NCBI GenBank assembly: GCA_039938515.1
Contig: JBDUUL010000010.1
Span: 1 to 64,000, forward strand
Direction of reading: 5' to 3'
Origin: Nitrososphaera sp.
GTDB taxonomy: Archaea > Thermoproteota > Nitrososphaeria > Nitrososphaerales > Nitrososphaeraceae
DNA length: 64,000 nucleotides
A model generated the notes under the pieces. It did no database searches and was not told the origin of the DNA. It saw nothing but the letters and a program-made list of their open reading frames with translations. Position numbers and translations under genes: made by a program. Below, piece by piece: positions 3,370-32,632 of this stretch; position 1 is the stretch's first letter; every line of letters starts with the position of its first letter.

Positions 3370-4763
3370 CCGAGAACTTGGCTGATATCGACCGCGTAAT
3401 CCAGTCCGCCGCAAGGCTGTGCGAACCGACGCCGGCAGAGTCGGCCAAAATTGCCCGCGTCGCCGACAGGGCACTGACGCTTGTGAAACAGACAGTCAGC
3501 GGCCTGGCTGAAGTCGAGGATGTGGAGCCCGGAGGCTCATATGCAAAGGGAACCTGGCTTCACGGGGGTGCTGATGTCGATATCTTTGTGAAATTCAATC
3601 GGTCGGTACCTGTTGAAAAGTTTGAGAAGACCGGCAAGGAAATAGGCCTTTCCGCCCTGCGGGACCATGAGCCTGTACTCCGCTACTCCGACCACCCCTA
3701 CGTAGAGGCGGCAATCAGCGGTGTCAGGGTAAACGTCGTGCCCTGCTATAACGTGGGAAAGGGAGGCTGGCAGAGCGCGGCTGACCGGTCCGTCTTTCAC
3801 ACAAGATACGTTAACGAGCGTTTTGACGACAAAATGCGCTCAGAGGTGAGGCTCCTGAAGCGCTTCCTCAAGACCGTCGGCATTTACGGTGCAGAAATCT
3901 CTACGTCCGGCTTTAGCGGTTATGTATGCGAGGTGCTCGTCTTGCGGTACCACGCCTTTAAGGAAGTGCTTGAAATGGCCGCGGAAATGCAGGACCTGCA
4001 CGTCGTCGCGATAGAGGATTTTGACACCGACATCGTAAAGGGATTCCCCGGACCGCTTATCGTAATCGACCCTGTTGACCCGCGGAGAAACCTCGGAACC
4101 GCCATTTCCCCAGAGAGTGTCGCCAAGTTTGTCCTTGCGGCCAGGTCGTTTCTTGCCAAGCCATCGGCACATTTTTTTTCTGGAAAAGACCCGCCAGGGG
4201 CGAGCAGGGATCCGGCCGGACTGTACAGCTCTGTACTCGTGGTCGAGTTTTCTCACAAGAAGCGCCCACCAGACATTGTCTGGGGACAATTGAAAAGAGG
4301 TGCAAACGCGGTTGCAAAGCAGCTAGAAATTGCAGGCTTTTCAGTCGTCAGATACGACTGCACAACCGACGAGAATAGCTCCGCCGCTTTTGTGTTCCTT
4401 CTTGAATCGCTCGAGCTCCCGCAGAAGGTCAAAAGGAAGGGGCCGGAGGTATTTCGAAAGTCTGATTCAGAGCGCTTTATCGACAGCGCACTTCGGACGA
4501 GCAAGAAAAAGCGTCCGTACCTTTTATGGGCAGACAGGGACATGCGGCTTGCCGTCCTCTCTGACAGAAAGGCGACTGACGCCCGGAAATTCGTAAATTC
4601 TCTGCTTGCGACTCCCGAGAGTGCAGGAGTCCCGCGGGAACTGTTTGACTCTGAGCGCAAGTTCCGAATTTATAGTGGTAGCGAGCGATCACGCCTATCG
4701 CCAGTTGTCCAAAATGCAATCGGAAGGCTCACAACTATCGAGAGACTCCTTTTCGGAGATTGA
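3366..4763 (+). CDS. cca: CCA-adding enzyme (archaeal class I tRNA nucleotidyltransferase)
   Basis: The enzyme adds or repairs the 3'-CCA end of tRNA. It is needed here because the one tRNA gene in the window does not encode CCA. The nucleotidyltransferase motif Gly-Gly-Ser-Tyr-Ala-Lys-Gly-Thr sits at residues 56-63, with metal-binding Asp70 and Asp72. The remaining 390 residues match the archaeal class I layout of central, body and tail domains, and the 465-residue length is normal. Translation starts at GTG 3366, overlapping thpR by 4 nt. The 3' end overlaps the next gene by 50 nt if that gene starts at ATG 4714. Confidence 0.95.
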   Translation: MTENLADIDRVIQSAARLCEPTPAESAKIARVADRALTLVKQTVSGLAEVEDVEPGGSYAKGTWLHGGADVDIFVKFNRSVPVEKFEKTGKEIGLSALRDHEPVLRYSDHPYVEAAISGVRVNVVPCYNVGKGGWQSAADRSVFHTRYVNERFDDKMRSEVRLLKRFLKTVGIYGAEISTSGFSGYVCEVLVLRYHAFKEVLEMAAEMQDLHVVAIEDFDTDIVKGFPGPLIVIDPVDPRRNLGTAISPESVAKFVLAARSFLAKPSAHFFSGKDPPGASRDPAGLYSSVLVVEFSHKKRPPDIVWGQLKRGANAVAKQLEIAGFSVVRYDCTTDENSSAAFVFLLESLELPQKVKRKGPEVFRKSDSERFIDSALRTSKKKRPYLLWADRDMRLAVLSDRKATDARKFVNSLLATPESAGVPRELFDSERKFRIYSGSERSRLSPVVQNAIGRLTTIERLLFGD

Positions 4764-5565
4764 CATTTCGTCTCCCCTGTGCAAGCCTATACTGGCGTAC
4801 CCAGGACATGATGCCTCTGACATTTCAGGCAGAATCTCAGAGCTGAAATCCCTGGGCGTCAGGTCGCTGGTTTCCGGCGGCAGGACTTCGATAGGGAGAT
4901 TCAGGGTCTGTGGCAAGGGATGCGTCGGCCTCGTTGTCATGGCGGTAGTGCAGTCTGGACCTGAAAGCGCCGTCTGCGCGCTCAAGGTGCGTCGCACCGA
5001 CGCCGACAGGATTAACATGCATGACGAGGCGCGCCTGCACGGCATCGCAAACGCTGCATGTGTGGGCCCGCAGCTCCGCGGCTGCACTGATAATTTTTTG
5101 CTCATGGATTTTGTGAAGGGTTCCACGATAATGGAATGGTCACAGGGCACGGTCAAGCCCGATAGTGCACGCCGGATAGCAAAGTCAATTTTGGTGCAGT
5201 GCCGCAAGCTGGACAAGGCGGGCATCGACCATGGCGAGCTATCCCGGCTCGACCGGCACGTGATAATCCCCACGCAAAGTGCCGGCACCGACCATGTAGA
5301 GCCCGTAATAATCGACTTTGAGAGCTCCAGTACTGTCCGAAGGCCCGCGAACGTCAGCGCTGCGGCCCAGGCGCTCTTCGTCGGCGGCAGGCAATTTATC
5401 AGGAAGAAAATGTCGCCCCATGCAAGCAAAAGGCTTGATGACGCAAGGACTCAAGAGGCGATTGCCGCCATCAGAGCCTACAAGAAGGACCTGACTGACG
5501 AGAACTTTGAAAGGGTGCTTGACGTCCTGCTTGGTGGGACGCAGGACGCATGCGCTCCCAGCTAG
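4714..5565 (+). CDS. Predicted RIO-like Ser/Thr protein kinase (COG2112 type)
   Basis: A 283-residue kinase-like protein. Visible elements are the beta-3 lysine (Cys-Ala-Leu-Lys-Val, Lys91), a candidate alpha-C Glu105, a catalytic loop Asp-His-Gly-Glu-Leu-Ser at 172-177 and a metal-binding motif Asp-Phe-Glu at 201-203. Compared with RIO kinases (His-Gly-Asp-Leu and an Asp-Phe/Asp-x-Gly motif), Glu replaces the usual catalytic Asp. Archaeal COG2112 proteins are predicted kinases of this kind; the substrate is unknown. Start ATG 4714 is preferred over a more upstream in-frame TTG-type start because it begins just before the conserved part. It overlaps cca and probably belongs to the same transcript. 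Confidence 0.75.
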   Translation: MQSEGSQLSRDSFSEIDISSPLCKPILAYPGHDASDISGRISELKSLGVRSLVSGGRTSIGRFRVCGKGCVGLVVMAVVQSGPESAVCALKVRRTDADRINMHDEARLHGIANAACVGPQLRGCTDNFLLMDFVKGSTIMEWSQGTVKPDSARRIAKSILVQCRKLDKAGIDHGELSRLDRHVIIPTQSAGTDHVEPVIIDFESSSTVRRPANVSAAAQALFVGGRQFIRKKMSPHASKRLDDARTQEAIAAIRAYKKDLTDENFERVLDVLLGGTQDACAPS

Positions 5566-5575
5566 CTTTTAATCT
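5565..5575 (+). promoter_or_regulatory. TATA box for the PAC2 gene
   Basis: GCTTTTAATCT is centred 28 nt before ATG 5598. It overlaps the stop codon of the upstream kinase gene and favours ATG 5598 over an earlier in-frame ATG at 5550. Confidence 0.5.
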
Positions 5576-5597
5576 AGAATACGTGGTATTTCAAACG

Positions 5598-6344
5598 ATG
5601 ACGGACCCTTTGATAGAGATCCGAAAACTGCGGGACATAAAGCTCCGCGGCGGGATTCTGCTTGATGGCTTTCCAAGCGTAGGCCTGGCAAATGCCATTG
5701 CGTCTGAGTGCCTGATACATTCCATGAACACAGAGCTTGTGGGAGTGCTTGACTCCCCTGCGTTTCCTCCGCTGTCCGTCATCCGGGCTTCGCGGCCGAA
5801 CTTCCCCGCCAGAATTTACGCCAACGATTCGTCAAACCTTGCCTTTTTCGTATCGGAGCTTAGCCTCGACCCTTCGCTATACCGCCCTGTTGCCTCTACA
5901 ATGATTCACTGGGCACAGGCCGCAGGCTGCGAGCTTTTGATAAGCGCTGCAGGCATACCTTACGAGACTGCAGAAGAGTCCGCCGAATCTACGCCTGAAG
6001 TATACGCCACCGCCAGCACTCCTCGCGCTGCAAAAAGATTCGAGCAGGCCGGCATCAAGACGCTGGGCAGCGGGTCTGTTGTCGGTATCCCTGCTATCCT
6101 TCTAAACGAAGGCATATGGCGAAAAATCGACGTCATCGTGCTTCTCGTAAGGGTGCTCAAGGACGCGCCTGACTTTCGAGCAGGCGCCGCAATTGCGGAG
6201 GCGATTACGAAACTCGTCCCAGGCACATCCTGCGACATCGGAGCCCTTTTGCAGGAGGCCGGCGTGACTGAAAAGACACTCCGGCAGCTCAGAAGCGAGC
6301 AGCAGTCGAACAGTGCGATGCGGCAGCAAGAGATGTATGGCTAA
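5598..6344 (+). CDS. PAC2 family protein (proteasome assembly chaperone-like)
   Basis: A 248-residue soluble protein of the PAC2/COG2047 type. It shows the family's early Gly-Phe-Pro-Ser-Val-Gly-Leu-Ala motif at about residues 24-31, a Pro-x-Phe-Pro-Pro segment near 52, and a central Gly-x-Pro-x-x-Leu-Leu-x-Glu element. Family members include eukaryotic proteasome assembly chaperones and archaeal homologues of uncertain role. The first ATG in frame (5550) lies inside the preceding gene and before the TATA box, so ATG 5598 is chosen. The stop overlaps the start of the downstream glycosylase gene, consistent with co-transcription. Confidence 0.82.
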   Translation: MTDPLIEIRKLRDIKLRGGILLDGFPSVGLANAIASECLIHSMNTELVGVLDSPAFPPLSVIRASRPNFPARIYANDSSNLAFFVSELSLDPSLYRPVASTMIHWAQAAGCELLISAAGIPYETAEESAESTPEVYATASTPRAAKRFEQAGIKTLGSGSVVGIPAILLNEGIWRKIDVIVLLVRVLKDAPDFRAGAAIAEAITKLVPGTSCDIGALLQEAGVTEKTLRQLRSEQQSNSAMRQQEMYG

Positions 6345-7023
6345 CGGTACGCGCACCGCACGCACAGGCTCTCAGACGCGTGCCTCTCGCCATTCGCTGC
6401 GAGAAAGAGAAGGCATCGCCGCGTCGCGCCATCTCTGCGCCTGCGACCCTGCACTGGCCCGGATTATCGGCCAGGTTGGAGCATGCACTATAAGGTCCGA
6501 GCCCGATGCCTTCATGTCGCTGGTGAGGGCAATAGTTTACCAGCAGCTGGCAGGAAGCGCCGCAGATGCGATTTTTGGTCGCTTTTTGAATTTGTACGGC
6601 AAAGACACATTTCCCCGGCCGGCGCAAATCCTTGCGACCGATGTCTCGGCCCTGAGGTCAACGGGTCTTTCTGCAAGAAAAATAGAGTACATATGCGATC
6701 TTGCAGCGCATGTCTCGGACGGCCGGCTCGACCTCGCTTCGCTATCGTCGCTTCCAGACGAGGAAATAATTGAGAAGCTCACATGCGTAAAGGGGATTGG
6801 CAGGTGGACGGCTGAAATGTTTTTGATATTCTGTCTTGGCAGGCCCGACGTGCTGCCTGTTGGTGACCTCGGGTTCCGGCGAGCGATAAAAATCCATTAT
6901 GGGCTTGAGGAGCTGCCGACGCCAGAAGTGGCAAGAAAAATAGCGGAACCCTGGAAGCCGTACTCCAGCATCGCGACGTGGTACCTCTGGAAGTCCCTTG
7001 AAAAATTCAAGGGGATCGGCTGA
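6337..7023 (+). CDS. DNA-3-methyladenine glycosylase II family (AlkA-like, HhH-GPD)
   Basis: A base-excision repair glycosylase of 228 residues. The helix-hairpin-helix (Val-Lys-Gly-Ile-Gly-Arg-Trp-Thr-Ala-Glu, residues 151-160) is followed by the catalytic Asp177 in Pro-Val-Gly-Asp-Leu-Gly, the AlkA-type arrangement. No iron-sulfur cluster cysteines of the EndoIII type are seen. The first ~30 residues are basic and low in complexity and may be disordered. ATG 6337 overlaps the preceding PAC2 gene by 8 nt. The gene converges on L2 with only 4 nt between stops. Confidence 0.88.
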   Translation: MANGTRTARTGSQTRASRHSLREREGIAASRHLCACDPALARIIGQVGACTIRSEPDAFMSLVRAIVYQQLAGSAADAIFGRFLNLYGKDTFPRPAQILATDVSALRSTGLSARKIEYICDLAAHVSDGRLDLASLSSLPDEEIIEKLTCVKGIGRWTAEMFLIFCLGRPDVLPVGDLGFRRAIKIHYGLEELPTPEVARKIAEPWKPYSSIATWYLWKSLEKFKGIG

Positions 7024-7027
7024 AACC

Positions 7028-7771
7028 CTACGCCTTCTTCTGCCTGAGGTCTTTGACTCTTCCGCGGCCAGTCTTTCTCGGAGAGATGTTGCCTACCTTG
7101 CGGCCCGGAGGAGTTGTCCTGCCGACCGACGACTGGCGACCAATGTGCTGGTGCCTGCCACCTCCGTGGGGGTGATAGACAGCTGCCTGGGCTATACCCC
7201 TTACCGTCGGGTAAAGCCTGCCGTGGGCCTGCATGTATTTTGCTCTGTTTCCGGCCTTGAGAAACGGCTTTTCCTTCCTGCCGCCTCCTGCTACGATCCC
7301 GACCATCGCCCTGCATTTCTGGTTGAGAACCAAAAACTTGCCCGACGGGAACTTTATCGTAACGCCCTCGGTCCCGTGAGCAAACACGGTCGCTCCGGAG
7401 CCTGCAGCCTTTGTAAGCTTGCCGCCATCGCCGGCGTTCTTTTCGATGTTGCAGACCATCGTGCCGTCGGGAATTGATTCGAGCAAAAGTATGTTGCCCG
7501 CCGTGGCTTTGGCGCCGGCCCCGACCTCTATGGTCTTTCCAACGACAGTGCCCTCTGGTGCCGGCACGTAAGAGTACTTGCCGTCATCAAAGCGAACCTT
7601 GGCCAGCGGCGCGTCGCGGCCTCGTTCATGAACAATGTCAAGCACGGTACCGGAGTGATGCTCTTCAAGTTTGAAATTCGGATACTTGGCCGGTGCTATC
7701 TTGCCAACTATAATAGCGCGAAACTGTTTACCTGCATGGCCGCGTCGGCGAACCAGCGTCCTCTTACCCAT
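7028..7771 (-). CDS. rpl2: Large ribosomal subunit protein uL2
   Basis: A 247-residue L2 protein of archaeal type that binds 23S rRNA at the peptidyl-transferase region. The C-terminal signature Pro-His-Gly-Gly-Gly-Arg-His-Gln-His contains the conserved histidine region needed for peptidyl transferase activity, and the N-terminus (Gly-Lys-Arg-x-x-x-Arg-Arg-Arg-Gly) is typical. A TATA-like GCTTAAAATC on the minus strand lies about 40 nt before ATG 7771. L2 stands alone here with no L3, L4, L23 or S19 neighbours, so it is outside the S10-type ribosomal cluster. Confidence 0.96.
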   Translation of the reverse strand: MGKRTLVRRRGHAGKQFRAIIVGKIAPAKYPNFKLEEHHSGTVLDIVHERGRDAPLAKVRFDDGKYSYVPAPEGTVVGKTIEVGAGAKATAGNILLLESIPDGTMVCNIEKNAGDGGKLTKAAGSGATVFAHGTEGVTIKFPSGKFLVLNQKCRAMVGIVAGGGRKEKPFLKAGNRAKYMQAHGRLYPTVRGIAQAAVYHPHGGGRHQHIGRQSSVGRTTPPGRKVGNISPRKTGRGRVKDLRQKKA

Positions 7772-7872
7772 TTAGTTTTCAGAAATTGACCTTCCAGAAG
7801 GTGATTTTAAGCTTGTGTTGCCTGCCCTGAAATTCCGCATGCCCATCCTATATACTAGGAATATTATCAGGT

Positions 7873-8937
7873 GTGGTATTCGGCTGCCCTTATGAGCGAA
7901 ATTATGCCAGTCAAGCTATAGTGCAGCAATTTTCCTTTCCTAAAGGTAAGTCAGAAAATCGAAAGGAGCCTGCCGAGGTTGTTCTTGTTGTAAATCCGAA
8001 TTCAGCGAGTGGCAAGACCGGCAAGAACTGGGACACGCTATTTTCCGAAATCAGAAAGATTCTCGGCTCAGAAGTCGACTTTGCGTTCACCGCCAAGCCC
8101 GGGGACGGCACGACGATTACGAGAAACCTCATCCGACAGGGCGTAAAGCGCATAATCCCAATCGGAGGCGATGGCACCATCAACGAGGTTGCAAACGGCT
8201 TTTTCGAAGAGCAGGTTGGCATTAGAAACAGTTCGGACAAGCTCAAGCCGATAAACCCCGACGCCGCGATGGGAGTGGTTCCAAGCGGCACAAGAAATGT
8301 TCTGGCCAGGTCCCTTGGCCTAAATTCCGACCTTCTGGAATGCTTTGGCTGCTTTGTGCACGGCAAGCCAACAAAGATAGATGTTGTTGCCGTGTCTGCG
8401 ACAAATCCCTCGTCGGGAGAATTGAATCCCGCCAGAATATTCCTTAACGCAGCGGAAATGGGGATCGCCGGGGAACTTGTGGACAGGTCAAAAAAAGTCC
8501 GGGGTACATTAAACAGCAGGCTAATTTCCACCATTACGGCAGCTGTGGCGACCGTCCCAAGCTACGAGAGCAACCTGTGCGATATAGACCTGGACAATGG
8601 AAGGGAAAGATTGCTGGCCAAAATGACTCTGGGAATAGTTGCAAACGGCAAGTACCTGGGCGGGGGATTCAAGGCCGCGCCGCTGGCGGATGTTTACGAC
8701 GGCCTCTTTGACCTTGTGGTTCTCAAGGATTCGGGAAGCTTCAAGATACTCGACGAGCTCGTAAAAATGAAGTCGGGCGATTACCGTAACGAAGGCGACA
8801 TCATTTACCTGCAGGGCAAGGACGCGTTGGTACGCTCGAAAGAGCGGGACGTGACTGTCACTATCGACGGCGAGCCGGCGGGCATCCTCCCTGCTGAATT
8901 TAGCGTGCATGAGGGCTCGCTCTCTGTGGTCCTCTAG
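7873..8937 (+). CDS. Diacylglycerol kinase family lipid kinase (YegS/DagK-like)
   Basis: A 354-residue protein of the DAGK catalytic superfamily. The ATP-binding Gly-Gly-Asp-Gly-Thr (residues 98-102) is followed by Ile-Asn-Glu-Val-Ala-Asn-Gly, and Asn-Pro-Asn-Ser-Ala-Ser-Gly-Lys-Thr marks the N-terminal nucleotide region at about 41-49. Such enzymes phosphorylate lipids, possibly archaeal polar lipid precursors or sphingoid-like lipids; the substrate cannot be read from sequence. The start is uncertain: GTG 7873 gives the longest product, but a TATATACTA box at about 7849-7857 is close to it, so a downstream GTG at 7921 is also possible. Confidence 0.85.
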   Translation: MVFGCPYERNYASQAIVQQFSFPKGKSENRKEPAEVVLVVNPNSASGKTGKNWDTLFSEIRKILGSEVDFAFTAKPGDGTTITRNLIRQGVKRIIPIGGDGTINEVANGFFEEQVGIRNSSDKLKPINPDAAMGVVPSGTRNVLARSLGLNSDLLECFGCFVHGKPTKIDVVAVSATNPSSGELNPARIFLNAAEMGIAGELVDRSKKVRGTLNSRLISTITAAVATVPSYESNLCDIDLDNGRERLLAKMTLGIVANGKYLGGGFKAAPLADVYDGLFDLVVLKDSGSFKILDELVKMKSGDYRNEGDIIYLQGKDALVRSKERDVTVTIDGEPAGILPAEFSVHEGSLSVVL

Positions 8938-25453: not shown

Positions 25454-26359
25454 TCATCGGGCCTGCTGCCTGGCGCACCAGTTCAGGAAAGACTCTAGGT
25501 CTTTTCCTGCAAAGTCCCCGTTTTCCTCGCCTATGGCCAGCAGCTCCGGGGTAGTGTGGATCCCTATTCGCAGCTCGCCCTTGAGCCGGCCCTTGAGAGC
25601 CCTTGACGCCGAGCAAAGAAACCTCAGCGAGCCCTCGCCACTCGTAAAGATCCCGATTACGAGGCTGCCGCTCTTGTCAGCCCATTCCTTTGACACAAAG
25701 CGCTGGAAATCAATGTCAAAGAACGGGTCAATCTCGTGCTCCACGCTTCCAAGGTATTTCGTGTCCCAGCCCTCGAGTGCGAGCGCGCCTGCGGCACACT
25801 TGGCGGCAAGCCCCCTGTCGGCCGACCCTGCAACTATTATCGCATGCGCGTTTCGCAGGCTGGACTGACGCGGCTGTGCGGTCAGCTTGACAAGGTCGGT
25901 CAGCTCGCCAAGCAAATTCAGAAAATAAGAGCGCTCACTCCTGCTAAGCCTTCCGACGCTGTAAAGCTCTCCAATGGTGTTGACGGCAGGCATTATCACG
26001 TCGGTGAGGGCCTTGACAGGCTCGACGTTGGAGGTCAGGATGCCGGTCATCAGCCGCTGGGCCTGCTTTTCATTTCCGGCAAAAACAGCGGCGATTAGCT
26101 TTTGCTGCGCCTGCACGTAGCTTACCGGAAATTCCAGATCCGCTGCGCCCGGTTCAATGAACCAGACGTTGACGCTCCCGATTTTTTTCTTGCCGACAAG
26201 TCCCACGGCGTGCAGGACATCAAGATATTTTGTGACCGTCATCCGGTTAATGCCCGTCTTGTCTGCAAGTTCCACTCCTGAAAGCCCCGCGCCGGAATTC
26301 TTTAGCTCTTCGATTATCCTGCGCTTTACCTCGTCAAGCGTATAACGCCGGCTCACCAT
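25454..26359 (-). CDS. HTH transcriptional regulator with B12-binding-like sensor domain
   Basis: A 301-residue regulator. Residues 1-70 form a winged helix (Leu-Ser-Gly-Val-Glu-Leu-Ala-Asp-Lys-Thr-Gly-Ile-Asn-Arg-Met-Thr-Val-Thr-Lys-Tyr). About 80-165 form a helical bundle like the cap of methyltransferase corrinoid domains (Val-Met-Pro-Ala-Val-Asn-x-x-Gly-Glu-Leu-Tyr), and 170-290 a Rossmann-like half with Ile-Val-Ala-Gly-Ser-Ala-Asp-Arg-Gly. The layout recalls B12-dependent regulators such as CarH. The cobalamin-ligating Asp-x-His-x-x-Gly is not intact: no His is seen at that position. The ligand may therefore be bound differently or be something else. The target is unknown. Confidence 0.68.
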   Translation of the reverse strand: MVSRRYTLDEVKRRIIEELKNSGAGLSGVELADKTGINRMTVTKYLDVLHAVGLVGKKKIGSVNVWFIEPGAADLEFPVSYVQAQQKLIAAVFAGNEKQAQRLMTGILTSNVEPVKALTDVIMPAVNTIGELYSVGRLSRSERSYFLNLLGELTDLVKLTAQPRQSSLRNAHAIIVAGSADRGLAAKCAAGALALEGWDTKYLGSVEHEIDPFFDIDFQRFVSKEWADKSGSLVIGIFTSGEGSLRFLCSASRALKGRLKGELRIGIHTTPELLAIGEENGDFAGKDLESFLNWCARQQAR

Positions 26360-26409: not shown

Positions 26410-27102
26410 CTACTTGTGCGCCTGCTTTTTCTTTGGCAGCTTGCGGGAACTTGAGATAAGGTCAGTCAGCGCGTTAAATGCCTTGCCAACCTGGTCCATC
26501 CTTACAAGGACTATTGTGTCGGTATAGCAGCTCACCGTGTCTTCGATGTTGATGTGCCTGCGCGCAAGCTGGTTGTAGAACGCTATCGCGCAGCCCGGGG
26601 TCTTGATGATTTCCTCGGGACTGTGAATGATAATCGCCGCCAGGTCGTCCTCGACTTCCAGGATGTCGTCGTCTGAGAACATCTCCCTTACGTCCTTTAG
26701 CAGCGTGTCATCAAATACCAGCGTTATCGACATTATGCTCTCAGAAACGCTGGTGAAGCTGTCGACGCTCTGGGTGAGCGATTTTGCCACTTTCTCGATA
26801 TTTTTCTTGCTCTTTTTGGCCGAGAGCTTGGCGACATCCGTCTTGACGCTTATTGTGCTTGCGGCAAGTATGGACGCAATGGGCCTCTCCGGGACCTCGT
26901 AGTCAAGCCGGGACCGCTTGAGCGCCGTGACGATGCTCTCTATGCTCGTGTTCCTGTCAAGCATCTTGTCCACCTGCGGCTTTATTATCCTGGCCAGAGC
27001 GCTTATGTTGCAGTAGTCCCTCTGCAGAGAATCCTGGAACGAAAGGTCGCCGCTCACCACTTCCTTTACTGCATTTGTAATAGATCTATCGCTGACCAAC
27101 AT
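26410..27102 (-). CDS. ACT-domain protein divergent from argG
   Basis: A 230-residue soluble protein. The N-terminal ~75 residues are helical (Ile-Ser-Ala-Leu-Ala-Arg-Ile-Ile-Lys-Pro-Gln-Val-Asp) and could hold an HTH-like fold. About 120-215 contain two ACT-like beta-alpha-beta units (Ile-Thr-Leu-Val-Phe-Asp-Asp; Ala-Ala-Ile-Ile-Ile-His-Ser-Pro-Glu-Glu-Ile; Gly-Cys-Ala-Ile-Ala-Phe-Tyr-Asn-Gln-Leu), and the tail is Lys-rich. ACT domains sense amino acids. Its ATG (27102) lies inside the operator array in front of argG, so it may be autoregulated and is a candidate arginine- or lysine-responsive regulator. That role is inferred from position only. Confidence 0.7.
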   Translation of the reverse strand: MLVSDRSITNAVKEVVSGDLSFQDSLQRDYCNISALARIIKPQVDKMLDRNTSIESIVTALKRSRLDYEVPERPIASILAASTISVKTDVAKLSAKKSKKNIEKVAKSLTQSVDSFTSVSESIMSITLVFDDTLLKDVREMFSDDDILEVEDDLAAIIIHSPEEIIKTPGCAIAFYNQLARRHINIEDTVSCYTDTIVLVRMDQVGKAFNALTDLISSSRKLPKKKQAHK

Positions 27103-27151
27103 CGGTCAAATGCCCCCCGTTTGGGTCAATACTGACCAAAAAATATAAATG
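27094..27151 (+). promoter_or_regulatory. 10-bp-phased GGTC/GACC operator array and TATA box, argG
   Basis: Half-sites GACC 27094, GGTC 27104, (CCCC at 27114, degenerate), GGTC 27124 and GACC 27134 alternate every 10 bp. AAAAAATATAAATG follows at once (27138-27151). ATG of argG is at 27179. The same arrangement with all five half-sites intact precedes argC. The array also covers the start codon of the divergent ACT gene (27102), and the AT box can be read as a promoter in both directions. Bound protein would cover the upstream edge of the TBP/TFB site, so repression is likely. Confidence 0.72.
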
Positions 27152-27178
27152 TAGTGCTCTTGACGCGAACGGCTGTTT

Positions 27179-28408
27179 ATGGCACGCGGCACTGCTGTCC
27201 TGGCATATTCTGGAGGCCTCGACACTTCCGTCTGCATAAGGTACATCCAGACATTGCACAAGCTCGACGTTATCACGGTAACAGTCGACGTCGGCCAGGA
27301 CGACGACTTTGGCGAGATAGAGCAGAGGGCCAAGACTATTGGCGCCATAAAGCACGTCTATATCGATGCCAAGCAAGAGTTTGCCGCGGACTATGTCACG
27401 CCAAGCATCAAGGCAAACGGGCTGTACCAGTCAAAGTATCCCCTTGCGACTGCGCTTGCCAGGCCGCTAATTGCCGCAAAGGCAGTCGAAGTGGCTGAAA
27501 AGGAGTGCGCCGAGGCAATCGCGCATGGCTGTACGGGCAAGGGAAACGACCAGATAAGGTTCGACGTCACAATGCGCGCGCTGAGCCCCCGCCTGAAGAT
27601 TATCGCGCCCATCAGGGACATGAATCTGACAAGGGACGTAGAGATAGAATTTGCAAAAGAACAGTCCATACCGATAAGCTCCGAGGCAAAAAAGTACAGC
27701 ATCGACCTGAATCTGTGGGGCCGCGCGGTCGAGGGCGGCAACATAGAGGATCCGTACTTTGAGCCCCAGCAGGACGCGTTCGAGTTTGTCGATCTGCAGA
27801 ATACCAAGGCAGGCTATATCGAGATCACGTTTGATGCCGGAGTGCCTGTTGCAGCGGATGGAAAGGAAATGCCACTTACCGACCTTATCTCCTATGTGAA
27901 CGACAGGGCAGGTTCGCACGGCGTCGGAATAGTCGACCACATCGAGGACAGGGTCGTCGGGATAAAGTCGCGTGAGGTCTACGAAGCCCCGGCGGCAGTC
28001 ACGATAATTGAGGCGCATAAGGATCTTGAAAAGATGGTGCTGACAAAGCACGAACTGGCGTTTAAGAGAAGCGTCGATGAGCAATGGAGCTGGCTGTGCT
28101 ACTCCGGCCTCTGGCAGGATCCTCTGCGCACGGATCTGGATAGGTTTATAGATGCGACTCAGATCCGCGTTAGCGGAAAAGTAAAACTAAAGATGCAGAG
28201 TGGATCTCTCCGCGTCGTTGGCCGCGAATCACGCTACTCACTTTACAAAAACGATCTGGCAACCTATGCCGCCGGGTCCACCTTTGACCAGAGTCTGGCC
28301 AAGGGGTTCGTAGAGCTCTGGGGACTGCAGTCTATAACGGCAAATTCGGTTGCAAGCCAGGGGCAGACAAGGCTGAACGAAAAATCTCCTAAAGGGAGGG
28401 GGGCATAA
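27179..28408 (+). CDS. argG: Argininosuccinate synthase
   Basis: ArgG joins citrulline and aspartate with ATP, the penultimate step of arginine synthesis in the cytoplasm. The 409-residue length fits. The PP-loop Ala-Tyr-Ser-Gly-Gly-Leu-Asp-Thr-Ser is at 9-17, and the conserved Gly-Cys-Thr-Gly-Lys-Gly-Asn-Asp-Gln and Tyr-Glu-Ala-Pro-Ala motifs are present. It is the first gene after the operator array, with lysW starting 4 nt after its stop and lysX following, so the arginine end of the pathway is co-transcribed with the carrier protein. A GGGAGGGGGG stretch at its 3' end may help translation of lysW. Confidence 0.96.
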   Translation: MARGTAVLAYSGGLDTSVCIRYIQTLHKLDVITVTVDVGQDDDFGEIEQRAKTIGAIKHVYIDAKQEFAADYVTPSIKANGLYQSKYPLATALARPLIAAKAVEVAEKECAEAIAHGCTGKGNDQIRFDVTMRALSPRLKIIAPIRDMNLTRDVEIEFAKEQSIPISSEAKKYSIDLNLWGRAVEGGNIEDPYFEPQQDAFEFVDLQNTKAGYIEITFDAGVPVAADGKEMPLTDLISYVNDRAGSHGVGIVDHIEDRVVGIKSREVYEAPAAVTIIEAHKDLEKMVLTKHELAFKRSVDEQWSWLCYSGLWQDPLRTDLDRFIDATQIRVSGKVKLKMQSGSLRVVGRESRYSLYKNDLATYAAGSTFDQSLAKGFVELWGLQSITANSVASQGQTRLNEKSPKGRGA

Positions 28409-28412
28409 AGAA

Positions 28413-28592
28413 TTGAAAGCAAAGGTCGAGTGCCAAGAATGTGGAGCCGACATTGGCGTTCCCGAAGACGCGGTCGTGGGCGAAATTGTCACGTGCCCCG
28501 ACTGCGGGGGCGACTTTGAAATTTCCGCGAAAGGAAATGACAAGGTCGAGCTAAAGCCGGCAGAAACAGTAGGCGAAGACTGGGGTCAATAA
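28413..28592 (+). CDS. lysW: Amino-group carrier protein LysW (ArgW), ending in Gln
   Basis: A 59-residue acidic zinc protein with Cys-Gln-Glu-Cys and Cys-Pro-Asp-Cys knuckles. It carries glutamate or alpha-aminoadipate derivatives through LysX, LysY/ArgC, LysZ/ArgB and LysJ/ArgD. In described LysW proteins the C-terminus is Glu-Asp-Trp-Gly-Glu, and the substrate amino group is joined to the gamma-carboxylate of the last Glu. Here the frame reads Glu-Asp-Trp-Gly-Gln-stop (28578-28592). TTG 28413 is the start. The stop overlaps the lysX ATG (TAATG). The call is secure; the Gln terminus is unusual. Confidence 0.93.
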   Translation: MKAKVECQECGADIGVPEDAVVGEIVTCPDCGGDFEISAKGNDKVELKPAETVGEDWGQ

Positions 28593-29452
28593 TGGTCGAG
28601 GTCTGCATCATTTACGACAAGGTGCGATTCGAGGAAAAGGCTCTTTATGAAAAGGCCCAACAAAAAGGGATAAAGGCACAGATCGTAGATGCAAAGTCGG
28701 TCGTTGTCAGCACGGAGAGCAAAAAGAAGGACTTTCAGCTTGGCGATGTGATACTGCAGCGCTCCGTGAGCCACTACCGCGGCCTTTACCTCACCGCGTG
28801 CCTCGAGTTCCTCGGATTTAGAGTAATCAACAAGTTCAAGGTGGGCGAGACCTGCGGAAACAAACTGCTGACCTCGCTGGTGCTGGCAAAGAGCAGGATC
28901 CCCACGCCGCGCACCCAGTTTGCGTTCAGCTCCGAGTCGGCTATCTCGAGCATCCAGAAGACCGGCTTTCCGCTGGTTCTAAAGCCAATCGTCGGCTCGT
29001 GGGGCCGCGGCGTCTTCCCGCTGCGCGACGACGAGATGGCAAACGTCATTGTGGAGATGCGCGAAGAAGACGACAACCCGCTTGCAAGAATATATTACAT
29101 TCAGGAAATGATTGAAAGGCCGCCGCGTGACATCCGCTGCATCGTAGTCGGCGACGAAATAGCCGCTGCCATCTACCGGTACTCTGCAGAAAAGGAATGG
29201 CGCACCAACGTGGCAAGGGGCGGGACCGCGGAGCAGGCTCCGATCACCGCTGAACTCGAAGAAATGGCGCTCAAGGCGGCCAAGGCGGTGGGAGGCGGAA
29301 TAGTCGGCGTCGACCTCATGGAGGACAAGACCCGCGGACTGGTCGTGCATGAAGTAAACAACACCGTGGAGTTTCGCGGCGCTGCTAGCGTTTCAAAGTC
29401 GGACATTCCCGGCACCATGCTGGACTACGCGGTGAGGATAGCCAAAAAATAA
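28592..29452 (+). CDS. lysX: LysW-glutamate/alpha-aminoadipate ligase
   Basis: An ATP-grasp ligase of 286 residues that attaches the amino group of glutamate (arginine branch) or alpha-aminoadipate (lysine branch) to the C-terminus of LysW. Typical elements are Leu-Lys-Pro-Ile-Val-Gly-Ser-Trp-Gly-Arg-Gly, Tyr-Ile-Gln-Glu-Met-Ile and the metal site Val-His-Glu-Val-Asn-Asn-Thr-Val-Glu-Phe-Arg-Gly near the end. Substrate preference cannot be fixed by eye; argG upstream argues for the glutamate branch, and bifunctional enzymes exist. It shares an A with the lysW stop, so translation is coupled. Confidence 0.93.
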   Translation: MVEVCIIYDKVRFEEKALYEKAQQKGIKAQIVDAKSVVVSTESKKKDFQLGDVILQRSVSHYRGLYLTACLEFLGFRVINKFKVGETCGNKLLTSLVLAKSRIPTPRTQFAFSSESAISSIQKTGFPLVLKPIVGSWGRGVFPLRDDEMANVIVEMREEDDNPLARIYYIQEMIERPPRDIRCIVVGDEIAAAIYRYSAEKEWRTNVARGGTAEQAPITAELEEMALKAAKAVGGGIVGVDLMEDKTRGLVVHEVNNTVEFRGAASVSKSDIPGTMLDYAVRIAKK

Positions 29453-29455
29453 CAT

Positions 29456-29513
29456 GACCAAAATTGGTCAAACCTGACCCGCTTTGGTCATATTCGACCA
29501 AAAAATATAAATG
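29456..29513 (+). promoter_or_regulatory. 10-bp-phased GGTC/GACC operator array and TATA box, argC
   Basis: Five half-sites alternate at an exact 10-bp period: GACC 29456, GGTC 29466, GACC 29476, GGTC 29486, GACC 29496. They are followed directly by AAAAAATATAAATG (29500-29513), identical to the argG box. The array begins 4 nt after the lysX stop, so argC-argB-argD has its own regulated promoter. The ATG of argC lies about 60 nt beyond the TATA box, leaving a leader of roughly 40 nt. Confidence 0.76.
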
Positions 29514-29574
29514 AGGATTTTTGAGGCATCCAGTTAAAGAAATGCGCAGCATTGCGGAGTTGTACATTTAGCAC

Positions 29575-30630
29575 ATGACAAAGGTAGGAGTCGTAGGAGC
29601 ATCGGGCTACGTCGGCGGCGAACTGCTGAGGCTGCTGGTCACCCATCCAAAGGTCGAGATTTCCATGGTTACCTCAAGGCAGAAGGCCGGCGAGTACGTC
29701 CAGCGCGTCCATCCTAGCCTCAAGGGCTTTATCGATCTCACGTTTTCGCCGATGGACATGGACAAGCTCTCAAGCGCCTGCGACCTTGTCTTTACCTCAG
29801 TCCCCCACGGCAAGGCAAACAAGATTGTGAAGGACCTTTACGACAGGGGCATGAAGGTAATCGATCTCTCCGCCGACTTTAGGCTCAAGAACCCCAAGGA
29901 CTACGTCAAGTGGTACGGCTGGGAACACCCCTTCCCCGAGATGCTCAGCAAGTCTGTTTACGGCGTGCCGGAGTTCCACCGGGACGAGATAAAAAAGGCC
30001 CAGCTTGTTTCGTGCCCCGGCTGCATGGCCGTGACTTCGCTTCTTGCGCTAAAGCCGCTTATAGAGAATAATCTTATTGATACCGAGCACTTGGTGGTCG
30101 ACAGCAAGATAGGCTCCTCGGGCGCGGGCCAGAAGGCAAACGCCGGCACGCACCACGCAATGCGCTACGGAGTCGTCAGGCCGTACAAGCCTGCAAAGCA
30201 CAGGCACACCGGGGAGATTGAACAGGAGCTCTCCTCGATAGCCAAGAAGCATATTCACGTAAGCATGAGCCCGCACGCGGTAAACATTGTCCGCGGAATC
30301 CTTACTACAAACCACACCTTCCTCAAGCGCGACGTTGAGGAGCTAGACCTCTGGAAGATGTACCGCGCCTCCTTCAAGGGCGAGCCCTTTGTCCGGCTCA
30401 TACGCGACAAGAAGGGGCTGTACAAGTTCCCAGATCCCAAGTTTGTGGTGGGCTCGAACTTTTGCGACGTCGGCTTTGACATAGACCAGGACAACCACCG
30501 CGTCGTCGCGCTTTCTGCGTCTGACAACCTCATGAAGGGCGCCGCCGGCTCGGCCATCCAGAACATGAACGTCATGGCCGGCTACGAGGAAACCGAAGGG
30601 CTCAAGTTCACCCCGCTTACTCCGGTATGA
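29575..30630 (+). CDS. argC: LysW-gamma-glutamyl/aminoadipyl-phosphate reductase (ArgC/LysY)
   Basis: An NADPH-dependent reductase of 351 residues that converts the acyl phosphate on LysW to the semialdehyde. The nucleotide loop Gly-Ala-Ser-Gly-Tyr-Val-Gly-Gly is at 8-15, and the catalytic cysteine is Cys150 in Ser-Cys-Pro-Gly-Cys-Met-Ala. The conserved Ser-Gly-Ala-Gly-x-Lys and the His-Arg-His-x-Gly-Glu segment follow. Its start ATG 29575 is 60 nt after the TATA box. The stop overlaps argB by 4 nt (ATGA). LysW-type and acetylated ArgC enzymes are homologous; the neighbouring lysW supports the carrier-bound reading. Confidence 0.95.
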   Translation: MTKVGVVGASGYVGGELLRLLVTHPKVEISMVTSRQKAGEYVQRVHPSLKGFIDLTFSPMDMDKLSSACDLVFTSVPHGKANKIVKDLYDRGMKVIDLSADFRLKNPKDYVKWYGWEHPFPEMLSKSVYGVPEFHRDEIKKAQLVSCPGCMAVTSLLALKPLIENNLIDTEHLVVDSKIGSSGAGQKANAGTHHAMRYGVVRPYKPAKHRHTGEIEQELSSIAKKHIHVSMSPHAVNIVRGILTTNHTFLKRDVEELDLWKMYRASFKGEPFVRLIRDKKGLYKFPDPKFVVGSNFCDVGFDIDQDNHRVVALSASDNLMKGAAGSAIQNMNVMAGYEETEGLKFTPLTPV

Positions 30631-31430
30631 TTGTCATAAAGATTGGCGGAAGTGTCGTTGACGGCCTGCACCTGTCAGCGCTTTCCGACATAAAGGCAGT
30701 CGCGGAAAAGGACAAGGTCGTGTTTGTGCACGGCGGAGGTAAGGAGGTCACGAGCATTGCGACCAAGCTTGGGAAGGAGCAGAGGTTCATCGTATCGCCC
30801 GGCGGCGTTCGCAGCAGGTACACCGACAAGGAGACTGCAGAAATCTACACGATGGTAATGTCGGGCAAAATAAACAAGGCCATCGTTGGCATGCTTTTGC
30901 GGCAGGGAATCCGGGCGGTAGGCATCGCCGGGGTTGACGGCGGGATTCTCAAGGCAGAGCGCAAAAAGAAACTCATGATTATCAATGAGAACGGCAGGAA
31001 AATGATGATAGACGGTGGCTACACCGGCAAGATAAGTTCAGTCGACCCGGCGCTCGTCGACAACCTTGTAAACACGGGCTACGTGCCGGTAATCTCGCCG
31101 ATAGCGCTCAGCGAGGACTATGACTTTCTAAACGTTGACGGCGACAGGGCGGCCGCCTATGTTGCCGGCGGGGTCAAGGCCGACAAGGTCATCTTCATTA
31201 CAAACGTCCCCGGGCTTATGCTAAATGAAAAGCTGGTCACCGCCATGACGCTCGAGCAGGCCAAGGATACGCTCCCAAAGATTGGCTTTGGAATGGAAAA
31301 GAAAGTCCTTGCCTGCACCGAGGCCATCGAGATGGGCGTGAAGGAGGCCATTATCGCTTCCGGCCAGGTGGAAAGGCCTGTCTCCTCGGCTATTGCCCAC
31401 CAGAACTGCACGGTGATAACGCCGAAATGA
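30627..31430 (+). CDS. argB: LysW-glutamate/aminoadipate 6-kinase (ArgB/LysZ)
   Basis: An amino-acid kinase of 267 residues that phosphorylates the side-chain carboxylate of the LysW-bound amino acid. Lys-Ile-Gly-Gly-Ser at 5-9, His-Gly-Gly-Gly-Lys-Glu-Val in the substrate loop, Asn-Val-Asp-Gly-Asp near 173 and Thr-Asn-Val-Pro-Gly-Leu show the family. It overlaps both neighbours by 4 nt (ATGA and ATGA), making argC-argB-argD one tightly coupled operon. Confidence 0.95.
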   Translation: MIVIKIGGSVVDGLHLSALSDIKAVAEKDKVVFVHGGGKEVTSIATKLGKEQRFIVSPGGVRSRYTDKETAEIYTMVMSGKINKAIVGMLLRQGIRAVGIAGVDGGILKAERKKKLMIINENGRKMMIDGGYTGKISSVDPALVDNLVNTGYVPVISPIALSEDYDFLNVDGDRAAAYVAGGVKADKVIFITNVPGLMLNEKLVTAMTLEQAKDTLPKIGFGMEKKVLACTEAIEMGVKEAIIASGQVERPVSSAIAHQNCTVITPK

Positions 31431-32632
31431 GTGCCGAAGACCAGTACCTTGCAAACCTCTACCAGCGCTTCCCGGTAAATCTTGCGCGCGGAAAGGGCGC
31501 GCGGGTGTGGGACACGTCCGGCAAGGAGTACATCGACTGCATGGGAGGCTACGGCGTCGCGCTTGTGGGCCACTGCAACGACAGGGTCGTCTCTGCAATC
31601 AAGAGTCAGGCAGACACGCTGATTACGGCCCACATGTCAGTCTACAACGAAACCCGTCTGGCGTTCATGAAAAAATTTGCCGAGATTTCGCCGCCCGGGC
31701 TGTCCAAGATTTTCTTTACAAACAGCGGCGCGGAGTCGATAGAAGGCGCGCTGAAATTTGCCCGCAAGTACACGGGAAAGCCCGGAATCATTGCCATGAA
31801 CGGCGCCTACCATGGCAAGACGTTCGGTGCGCTCTCGGTCACCTACAATGAAAAATATCGCAAGTCGTTCATGCCCCTGCTTGAAGGAGTCAAGTTCGTC
31901 CCGTACAGCGACCCGGCAAAGCTTGAAGAGTCAATCGACGAGAACACCGGAACCGTCATCCTGGAGCCGATACAGGGCGAGACCGGAATCATAGTGCCTC
32001 CGGACGACCTTCTTCCGAAAATACGCGAAATCTGCGACAGGCGCAAGCTCGTGCTGATATTTGACGAAATACAGGCGGGCCTTGGAAGGACCGGCAAGAT
32101 GTGGGCAGGCCAGCACTGGAACACCACGCCGGACATCATGTGCCTTGCAAAGGGCATCGCAGGCGGCATCCCCATGGGCCTTATTGCATCCCGGCCGGAG
32201 ATAATGGAGGCGACCAAACTAGGCGAACACTCGTCTACCTTTGGCGGAAGCCCCATTGCCTGCGCTGCAGGGCACGCCACGCTCCAAGCGCTGACCGAGG
32301 ACGGCCTTGTCGACAACGCCGCCAGGATGGGCGTACTGTTCAGGGAAGGGCTGGAGCGACTCAAGGAAAAGCACAGGATAATCCGCGAGGTTCGCGGCAA
32401 AGGCATGATGATTGGCGTCGAGCTGCGCTTTGAGGTCAAAGACGTGCTCTTTGACGGAATCCGTCAGGGACTGCTCATGCTGTACTCGGGAAGGAACATA
32501 ATCAGACTCCTTCCGCCTCTTGTGATGGATGAAGCGTTGGTTTCTCGCGCAGTCGACATAATCGACTCGATCTTGAGAAAAATGTCAATACAGAAGGGAC
32601 TGGAACCGTCAAGCAGGATGGACAAGGAGTAA
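31427..32632 (+). CDS. argD: LysW-gamma-L-ornithine/lysine aminotransferase (ArgD/LysJ)
   Basis: A class III PLP aminotransferase of 401 residues that aminates the LysW-bound semialdehyde. Phe-Asp-Glu-Ile-Gln-Ala-Gly-Leu-Gly-Arg-Thr-Gly holds the PLP-contacting Asp, and the Schiff-base lysine is Lys242 in Leu-Ala-Lys-Gly-Ile-Ala-Gly-Gly. Asn-Ser-Gly-Ala-Glu-Ser supplies the phosphate-binding region. It is the last gene of the operon. No LysK/ArgE-type hydrolase for release from LysW is in the window; that gene must lie elsewhere. Confidence 0.95.
   Translation: MSAEDQYLANLYQRFPVNLARGKGARVWDTSGKEYIDCMGGYGVALVGHCNDRVVSAIKSQADTLITAHMSVYNETRLAFMKKFAEISPPGLSKIFFTNSGAESIEGALKFARKYTGKPGIIAMNGAYHGKTFGALSVTYNEKYRKSFMPLLEGVKFVPYSDPAKLEESIDENTGTVILEPIQGETGIIVPPDDLLPKIREICDRRKLVLIFDEIQAGLGRTGKMWAGQHWNTTPDIMCLAKGIAGGIPMGLIASRPEIMEATKLGEHSSTFGGSPIACAAGHATLQALTEDGLVDNAARMGVLFREGLERLKEKHRIIREVRGKGMMIGVELRFEVKDVLFDGIRQGLLMLYSGRNIIRLLPPLVMDEALVSRAVDIIDSILRKMSIQKGLEPSSRMDKE

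Follow-up and report, generated by a model that had tools for sequence, protein, structure and literature searches.

Bacterial arginine genes are placed under end-product control by ArgR, which acts through palindromic operators known as ARG boxes, and an ARG box has also been described for the arginine genes of the Sulfolobales. COG2150 is a predicted regulator of amino acid metabolism with an ACT domain. For Nitrososphaeria and Bathyarchaeota we are not aware of any arginine regulator that has been characterised, and a literature search for one turned up none. COG2150 has been listed among the proteins of almost all Euryarchaeota (PMC1852104), and the literature search found no operator or target described for it. 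Described archaeal regulators of the Lrp/AsnC family include LysM of Sulfolobus, which acts on lysWXJK, as well as FL11, Ptr2 and Ss-LrpB (PMC2995911).

The locus considered here lies in a window of 64,000 nucleotides (the whole stretch of DNA that was analysed) and combines arrays of GACC/GGTC half-sites before argG and argC with a divergent gene for a protein with two ACT domains, hereafter the ACT protein. Its likeness to the Lrp/AsnC systems lies in a proposed amino-acid-responsive control of a LysW-type pathway, in several palindromic sites on one DNA face beside the BRE/TATA region and, as with Ptr2, in a regulator reading frame that overlaps the control region of its target (PMC2995911). 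Unlike these regulators, the ACT protein has no match to the Lrp HTH or RAM domain and carries aspartokinase-type tandem ACT domains; moreover, its half-sites stand one turn apart in alternating orientation, whereas Lrp site centres are two or three turns apart (PMC2995911). With ArgR the locus would share end-product arginine control through palindromic operators, but the ACT protein matches neither the DNA-binding nor the C-terminal domain of ArgR, the half-sites are GGTCA/TGACC, and the phased array is longer and stands beside an archaeal TATA box. The Sulfolobales ARG box is similarly a cis element shared by archaeal arginine promoters, and the name of COG2150 would fit the ACT protein. 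Judged by profile tests, the system appears to work like those of ArgR or LysM yet to belong to neither. No report of this combination of array and ACT protein was found in the literature search, and what would be new is an amino-acid-responsive, autoregulated operator with a candidate reader of uncharacterised type.

Two phased arrays before arginine genes

The window comes from Nitrososphaera, a soil archaeon, and contains the following features.

26410..27102 (-), candidate reader of the arrays, a 230-aa protein (PF13840; AlphaFold2 model; aspartokinase-type ACT match; co-occurrence with the array)
27094..27137 (+), putative argG operator array: GACC at 27094, GGTC at 27104, degenerate CCCC at 27114, GGTC at 27124, GACC at 27134 (read directly)
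27138..27151 (+), AAAAAATATAAATG, presumed to be the BRE/TATA region of argG and perhaps used by the divergent gene as well; conserved, with the promoter role suggested by position
27179..28408 (+), argG, argininosuccinate synthase (profile match)
28413..28592 (+), lysW/argW carrier protein (NF041070)
28592..29452 (+), lysX/argX ligase (TIGR02144)
29456..29499 (+), putative argC operator array: GACC at 29456, GGTC at 29466, GACC at 29476, GGTC at 29486, GACC at 29496 (all five exact)
29500..29513 (+), AAAAAATATAAATG, presumed BRE/TATA region of argC, identical to the argG copy
29575..30630 (+), argC, first gene of argC-argB-argD (TIGR01850)
30627..31430 (+), argB, [LysW]-aminoadipate/glutamate kinase (NF010662)
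31427..32632 (+), argD-type aminotransferase (TIGR00707)

The genes argG, lysW/argW, lysX/argX, argC, argB and argD represent the LysW-dependent arginine pathway, and this gene set perhaps serves lysine too. The sequence-only reading had placed five half-sites before argG in steps of 10 bp, ending at AAAAAATATAAATG, and had described the same pattern before argC with all five half-sites and an identical 14-nt TATA region. Read directly, the argG coordinates are exact, and the argC counterpart is confirmed at 29456-29513. The argG array thus has four exact half-sites and one CCCC, the argC array five exact half-sites, and the identical AAAAAATATAAATG directly abuts the 3' end of both. The argC leader also contains a 9-codon reading frame, MRSIAELYI (29542-29571, +), whose start is as far from the TATA region as that of argG; it is probably due to chance.

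The long pattern GACC-N6-GGTC-N16-GGTC-N6-GACC occurs at two places in the 2,556,235-base genome, and both, the argG and argC arrays, precede arginine transcription units. From base composition 0.0017 occurrences of the pattern are expected, and its reversed control does not occur in the genome. The TATA-proximal part, GGTC-N6-GACC-AAAAAATATAAA, recovered no places but the same two even when up to 3 mismatches were allowed (control 0), and imperfect copies of the long pattern at other genomic positions were no commoner than for the control. These searches covered the genome by patterns and stretches, through which a weaker, differently built operator elsewhere could have escaped. Within the window, single 14-bp palindromes with one mismatch gave counts of 17 against 20 expected and, in a second count, 29 against 19; since single palindromes are not clearly enriched there, the signal is the phased array and not the single palindrome. 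The sole other exact TTGGTC-N5-TGACC in the genome (C5:67695) was rejected as a further member, having coding-like surroundings and no adjacent TATA. The conserved TGATTTAGG of the argG arrays was considered as the TATA box of the ACT gene itself and dropped because it is too close to the start codon.

Conservation, phasing and joint loss with the ACT gene

The sequence-only reading missed both the divergent ACT gene, whose ATG (27100-27102) lies inside the distal palindrome of the argG array, and the absence of the array from relatives without this gene. With the sequence of the ACT protein itself, 80 loci of the ACT gene were retrieved. Its divergent partner is argG in 76 of the 80, up to Bathyarchaeota, and carA in the other four, which belong to two Candidatus Terraquivivens, one Methanosuratincola and one further archaeon (Pfam confirms carA in L342 and L343; in L340 and L338 it was recognised from the sequence). 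The ACT gene of family f8 is followed by the gene for ornithine carbamoyltransferase (argF). The neighbourhood is arginine-related throughout.

Relatives are coded here by genus (g) and family (f), g1 and f1 being those of the window. The argG array was found in g1, g3, g6, f3, f8 and f16 and, in varying form, in the majority of the other families, giving it a range over most of the order and into Bathyarchaeota. The argC array is kept in g3, in g6/Nitrosopolaris and in every one of the six g1 relatives that gave an argC match, and it is absent from g2, g4, g5, g7 and g8; its range is Nitrososphaera and the nearest genera. It had been suggested that an operator would keep its spacing at argC and argG of relatives while the spacer drifts, and this is what was found. 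The strict 10-bp step holds in the window (10-10-10-10), but the usual spacing in Nitrososphaera relatives is 10-10-11-10. The middle argG half-site, thought to be degenerate only in this genome, is degenerate in every g1 argG array, which leaves a weaker argG repression special to this genome without support. In Bathyarchaeota the layout is the same, for example GACCATTTTTGGTCAC ... ATATTGACC, with a TATA-like stretch a few bases on. The family-weighted consensus of exact sites reads GGTCA-N4-TGACCAAAA followed by TATAAA for the proximal palindrome and TGACCA-N5-GGTCA for the distal one.

To measure phasing, the distance between every two exact half-sites was taken over the 150 nt before argG in 76 genomes that carry the ACT gene. 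Distances peak at 10 (50 pairs, 8 families), 20-21 (25), 30-31 (35) and 39-41 bp (30), with few pairs between, so that multiples of about 10.5 bp are kept in relatives, as predicted for binding on one face of the helix; the earlier view of helical phasing as an operator sign therefore held up. No half-site pair at 10, 20 or 30 bp occurs upstream of argG in 53 ACT-less genomes. As for the bound form, this phasing would fit a filament, dimers or a tetramer alike.

Each genome was also scored, out of 8 positions, by its closest match to GACC-N6-GGTC or GGTC-N6-GACC lying no more than 160 nt from argG. At least 7 positions were matched in 60 of the 76 genomes with the ACT gene, against 0 of the 53 without it, a set that includes one genome cut at a contig end (G062). 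Dinucleotide shuffles reached this score in 6% and 1% of cases, respectively, and the remaining 16 ACT-bearing genomes score only 6 of 8. Wherever the ACT gene is present, the array is neither absent from close relatives nor equally frequent in random intergenic DNA of the genome, either of which had been named as a refutation.

Because relatives are not independent data points, a tree of ArgG was built, on which ACT status needs at least 3 changes on well-supported branches. Losses fall in the Nitrosopumilaceae-like f9, in the g2/g4/g5/g7 part of f1, and in G119 beside Nitrosopolaris. Each is accompanied by loss of the array, and the A/T-rich core promoter stays; on at least three occasions the ACT gene and the array have disappeared jointly. 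In G119 and G032, a gene for an HTH and B12-binding-type protein (HTH+B12), which in g1 comes next after the ACT gene, now adjoins argG, showing that the ACT gene was removed from between. This keeping together of the array and the neighbouring ACT gene across lineages makes the ACT protein the likely arginine regulator of these archaea, one so far unrecognised.

Two further observations concern array-less relatives. Around the argG start, the f9 loci L120, L125, L127 and L128 share a conserved stretch that includes TGATCA (such as TGATCACAGAAAA) and is perhaps another control element. The ACT-less g2 genomes L372, L373, L375 and L376 carry a site like GGTCAC-N2-TTGACCAAAA that comes right after a TATA-like stretch and precedes a kinase-like gene, at the same orthologous position in each. 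As an operator of ACT-less g2 genomes, GGTC-N6-GACC-AAAA was rejected: it stands at a single orthologous spot and was taken as chance fixed by descent.

The ACT protein as candidate reader

The candidate protein belongs to the ACT fold. It matches PF13840 (ACT_7) above the cut-off, and its AlphaFold2 model (pLDDT 81) has helices at residues 8-17, 20-28, 33-48 and 54-67, followed by two ACT domains. With Foldseek, this C-terminal tandem matches aspartokinase regulatory domains (E about 1e-7), and a fold search with the whole model returned aspartokinase ACT domains only. From these models, the ACT domains would be expected to sense an amino acid. The four-helix N-terminal domain modelled alone (pLDDT 83) has no significant structural match in the PDB, sequence searches of the PDB found no relative, and no HTH domain of Pfam matches it. 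Among 23 orthologues, AsnC-type HTH and RAM (Lrp) Pfam domains were absent at E up to 10, the same scan giving ACT domains and scattered weak unrelated matches only. Since there is neither a solved relative nor a Pfam HTH match, a DNA-binding role for the N-terminal domain is something that we infer. What a paralogue in Nitrososphaera and f9 has in common with the ACT protein is mainly this domain (residues 6-68; hhalign probability 97%). Its gene is transcribed away from those of hsp20 and a CDC48-type AAA ATPase (4458-5111, -, against 5204-7940, +, in L382; also in L387, L383 and L384), and the intergenic region has TGTMAT-N4-ATTACA right after a TATA-like stretch at all four loci read. A paralogue across a different palindrome is as expected of a DNA-binding regulator family and supports the proposed role of the N-terminal domain.

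It is quite likely that the arrays are operators of an autoregulated, amino-acid-responsive arginine switch, read most probably by the ACT protein (26410-27102, -). The array, its conservation, its phasing, the gene order and the co-loss, on which this reading stands, were observed; from them we infer DNA binding by the ACT protein, a ligand and a sign of regulation. DNA contact would be made by the helical N-terminal domain, at GGTCA/TGACC half-sites that follow one another at roughly one turn of the helix, and dimers or a higher oligomer would sit on one DNA face. On the argG array, the protein would touch the BRE/TATA edge of argG and at once cover the beginning of its own gene, so that a single complex would control the two genes and the regulator would act on itself, and the second array in Nitrososphaera and the nearest genera would bring argC-argB-argD under the same control. 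As sensors, the tandem ACT domains would respond to arginine or a closely related metabolite; together with the gene context they point to arginine or an intermediate of the pathway as the probable ligand, and lysine is possible because LysW enzymes may serve both pathways.

Other readers, other origins and the sign of control

The arrays may instead be a real arginine operator with another reader, such as an Lrp-type or other winged-helix protein; the ACT protein would then be only an allosteric subunit or a partner under the same control. Its N-terminal domain is not recognised as an HTH, and archaeal Lrp regulators do bind phased arrays just upstream of the BRE (PMC2995911), yet the array follows the ACT gene through three losses and contains its start codon. 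The nearest alternative is the HTH+B12 protein (25454-26359, -) encoded downstream of the ACT gene. It is confined to families f1, f2, f3 and f9, occurs in the array-less f9 and g2 and was not found in many array-bearing families; with a distribution opposite to that of the array, it was rejected as the reader. We therefore regard a different reader as improbable. Far less probable still is that no operator exists and that the elements are conserved as a by-product of divergent promoters that overlap and of the opening codons of the divergent gene. The distal palindrome does overlap the first codons of the ACT gene, start codon included, so that part of its conservation could be coding, and AAAAAATATAAATG could serve both directions. 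However, the argC array has the same five phased half-sites and no divergent gene, which makes such an origin unlikely; ACT-less relatives retain the A/T-rich core without half-sites, and in Bathyarchaeota the ACT start codon is shifted relative to the palindrome, which itself has not moved. A search of 26900-29700 against Rfam gave no match, on which ground an RNA element was rejected; this also speaks against a by-product.

For the operator read by the ACT protein, the sign of control divides the preferred explanation. Repression, in which the amino acid would serve as co-repressor, is favoured somewhat over activation relieved by it, because the last GACC directly adjoins the presumed BRE and because three lineages that lost gene and array kept similar core promoters. 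Such retention is easier to understand if the lost protein had repressed these needed genes than if it had activated them. As an activator, counted as a sub-case within this explanation, the same protein on the same operator would recruit TBP/TFB when arginine is scarce and be turned off by the amino acid, as proposed for LysM. The array is wholly upstream of the TATA box, and activation is possible given that the published archaeal Lrp activators Ptr2, LysM and Ss-LrpB work from sites just upstream of the BRE (PMC2995911); taken on its own, this sub-case is doubtful.

On a wider view, we give an even chance to the proposal that the ACT protein founds an unrecognised class of archaeal transcription factors, in which a new small helical DNA-binding domain is joined at its C-terminal side either to tandem ACT domains or to another, unidentified domain. 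Every paralogue would stand back to back with the operon that it controls and read its own one-turn-spaced palindrome: GACC/GGTC at argG, argC and carA, and TGTAAT/ATTACA at hsp20-cdc48. The class would extend from ammonia-oxidising archaea to Bathyarchaeota, Caldarchaeales and Methanomethylicia. The result supplies a candidate protein, an operator, target genes and natural losses of both gene and array in globally important ammonia oxidisers and, if true, would add a helical-domain-plus-ACT class to the archaeal regulators.
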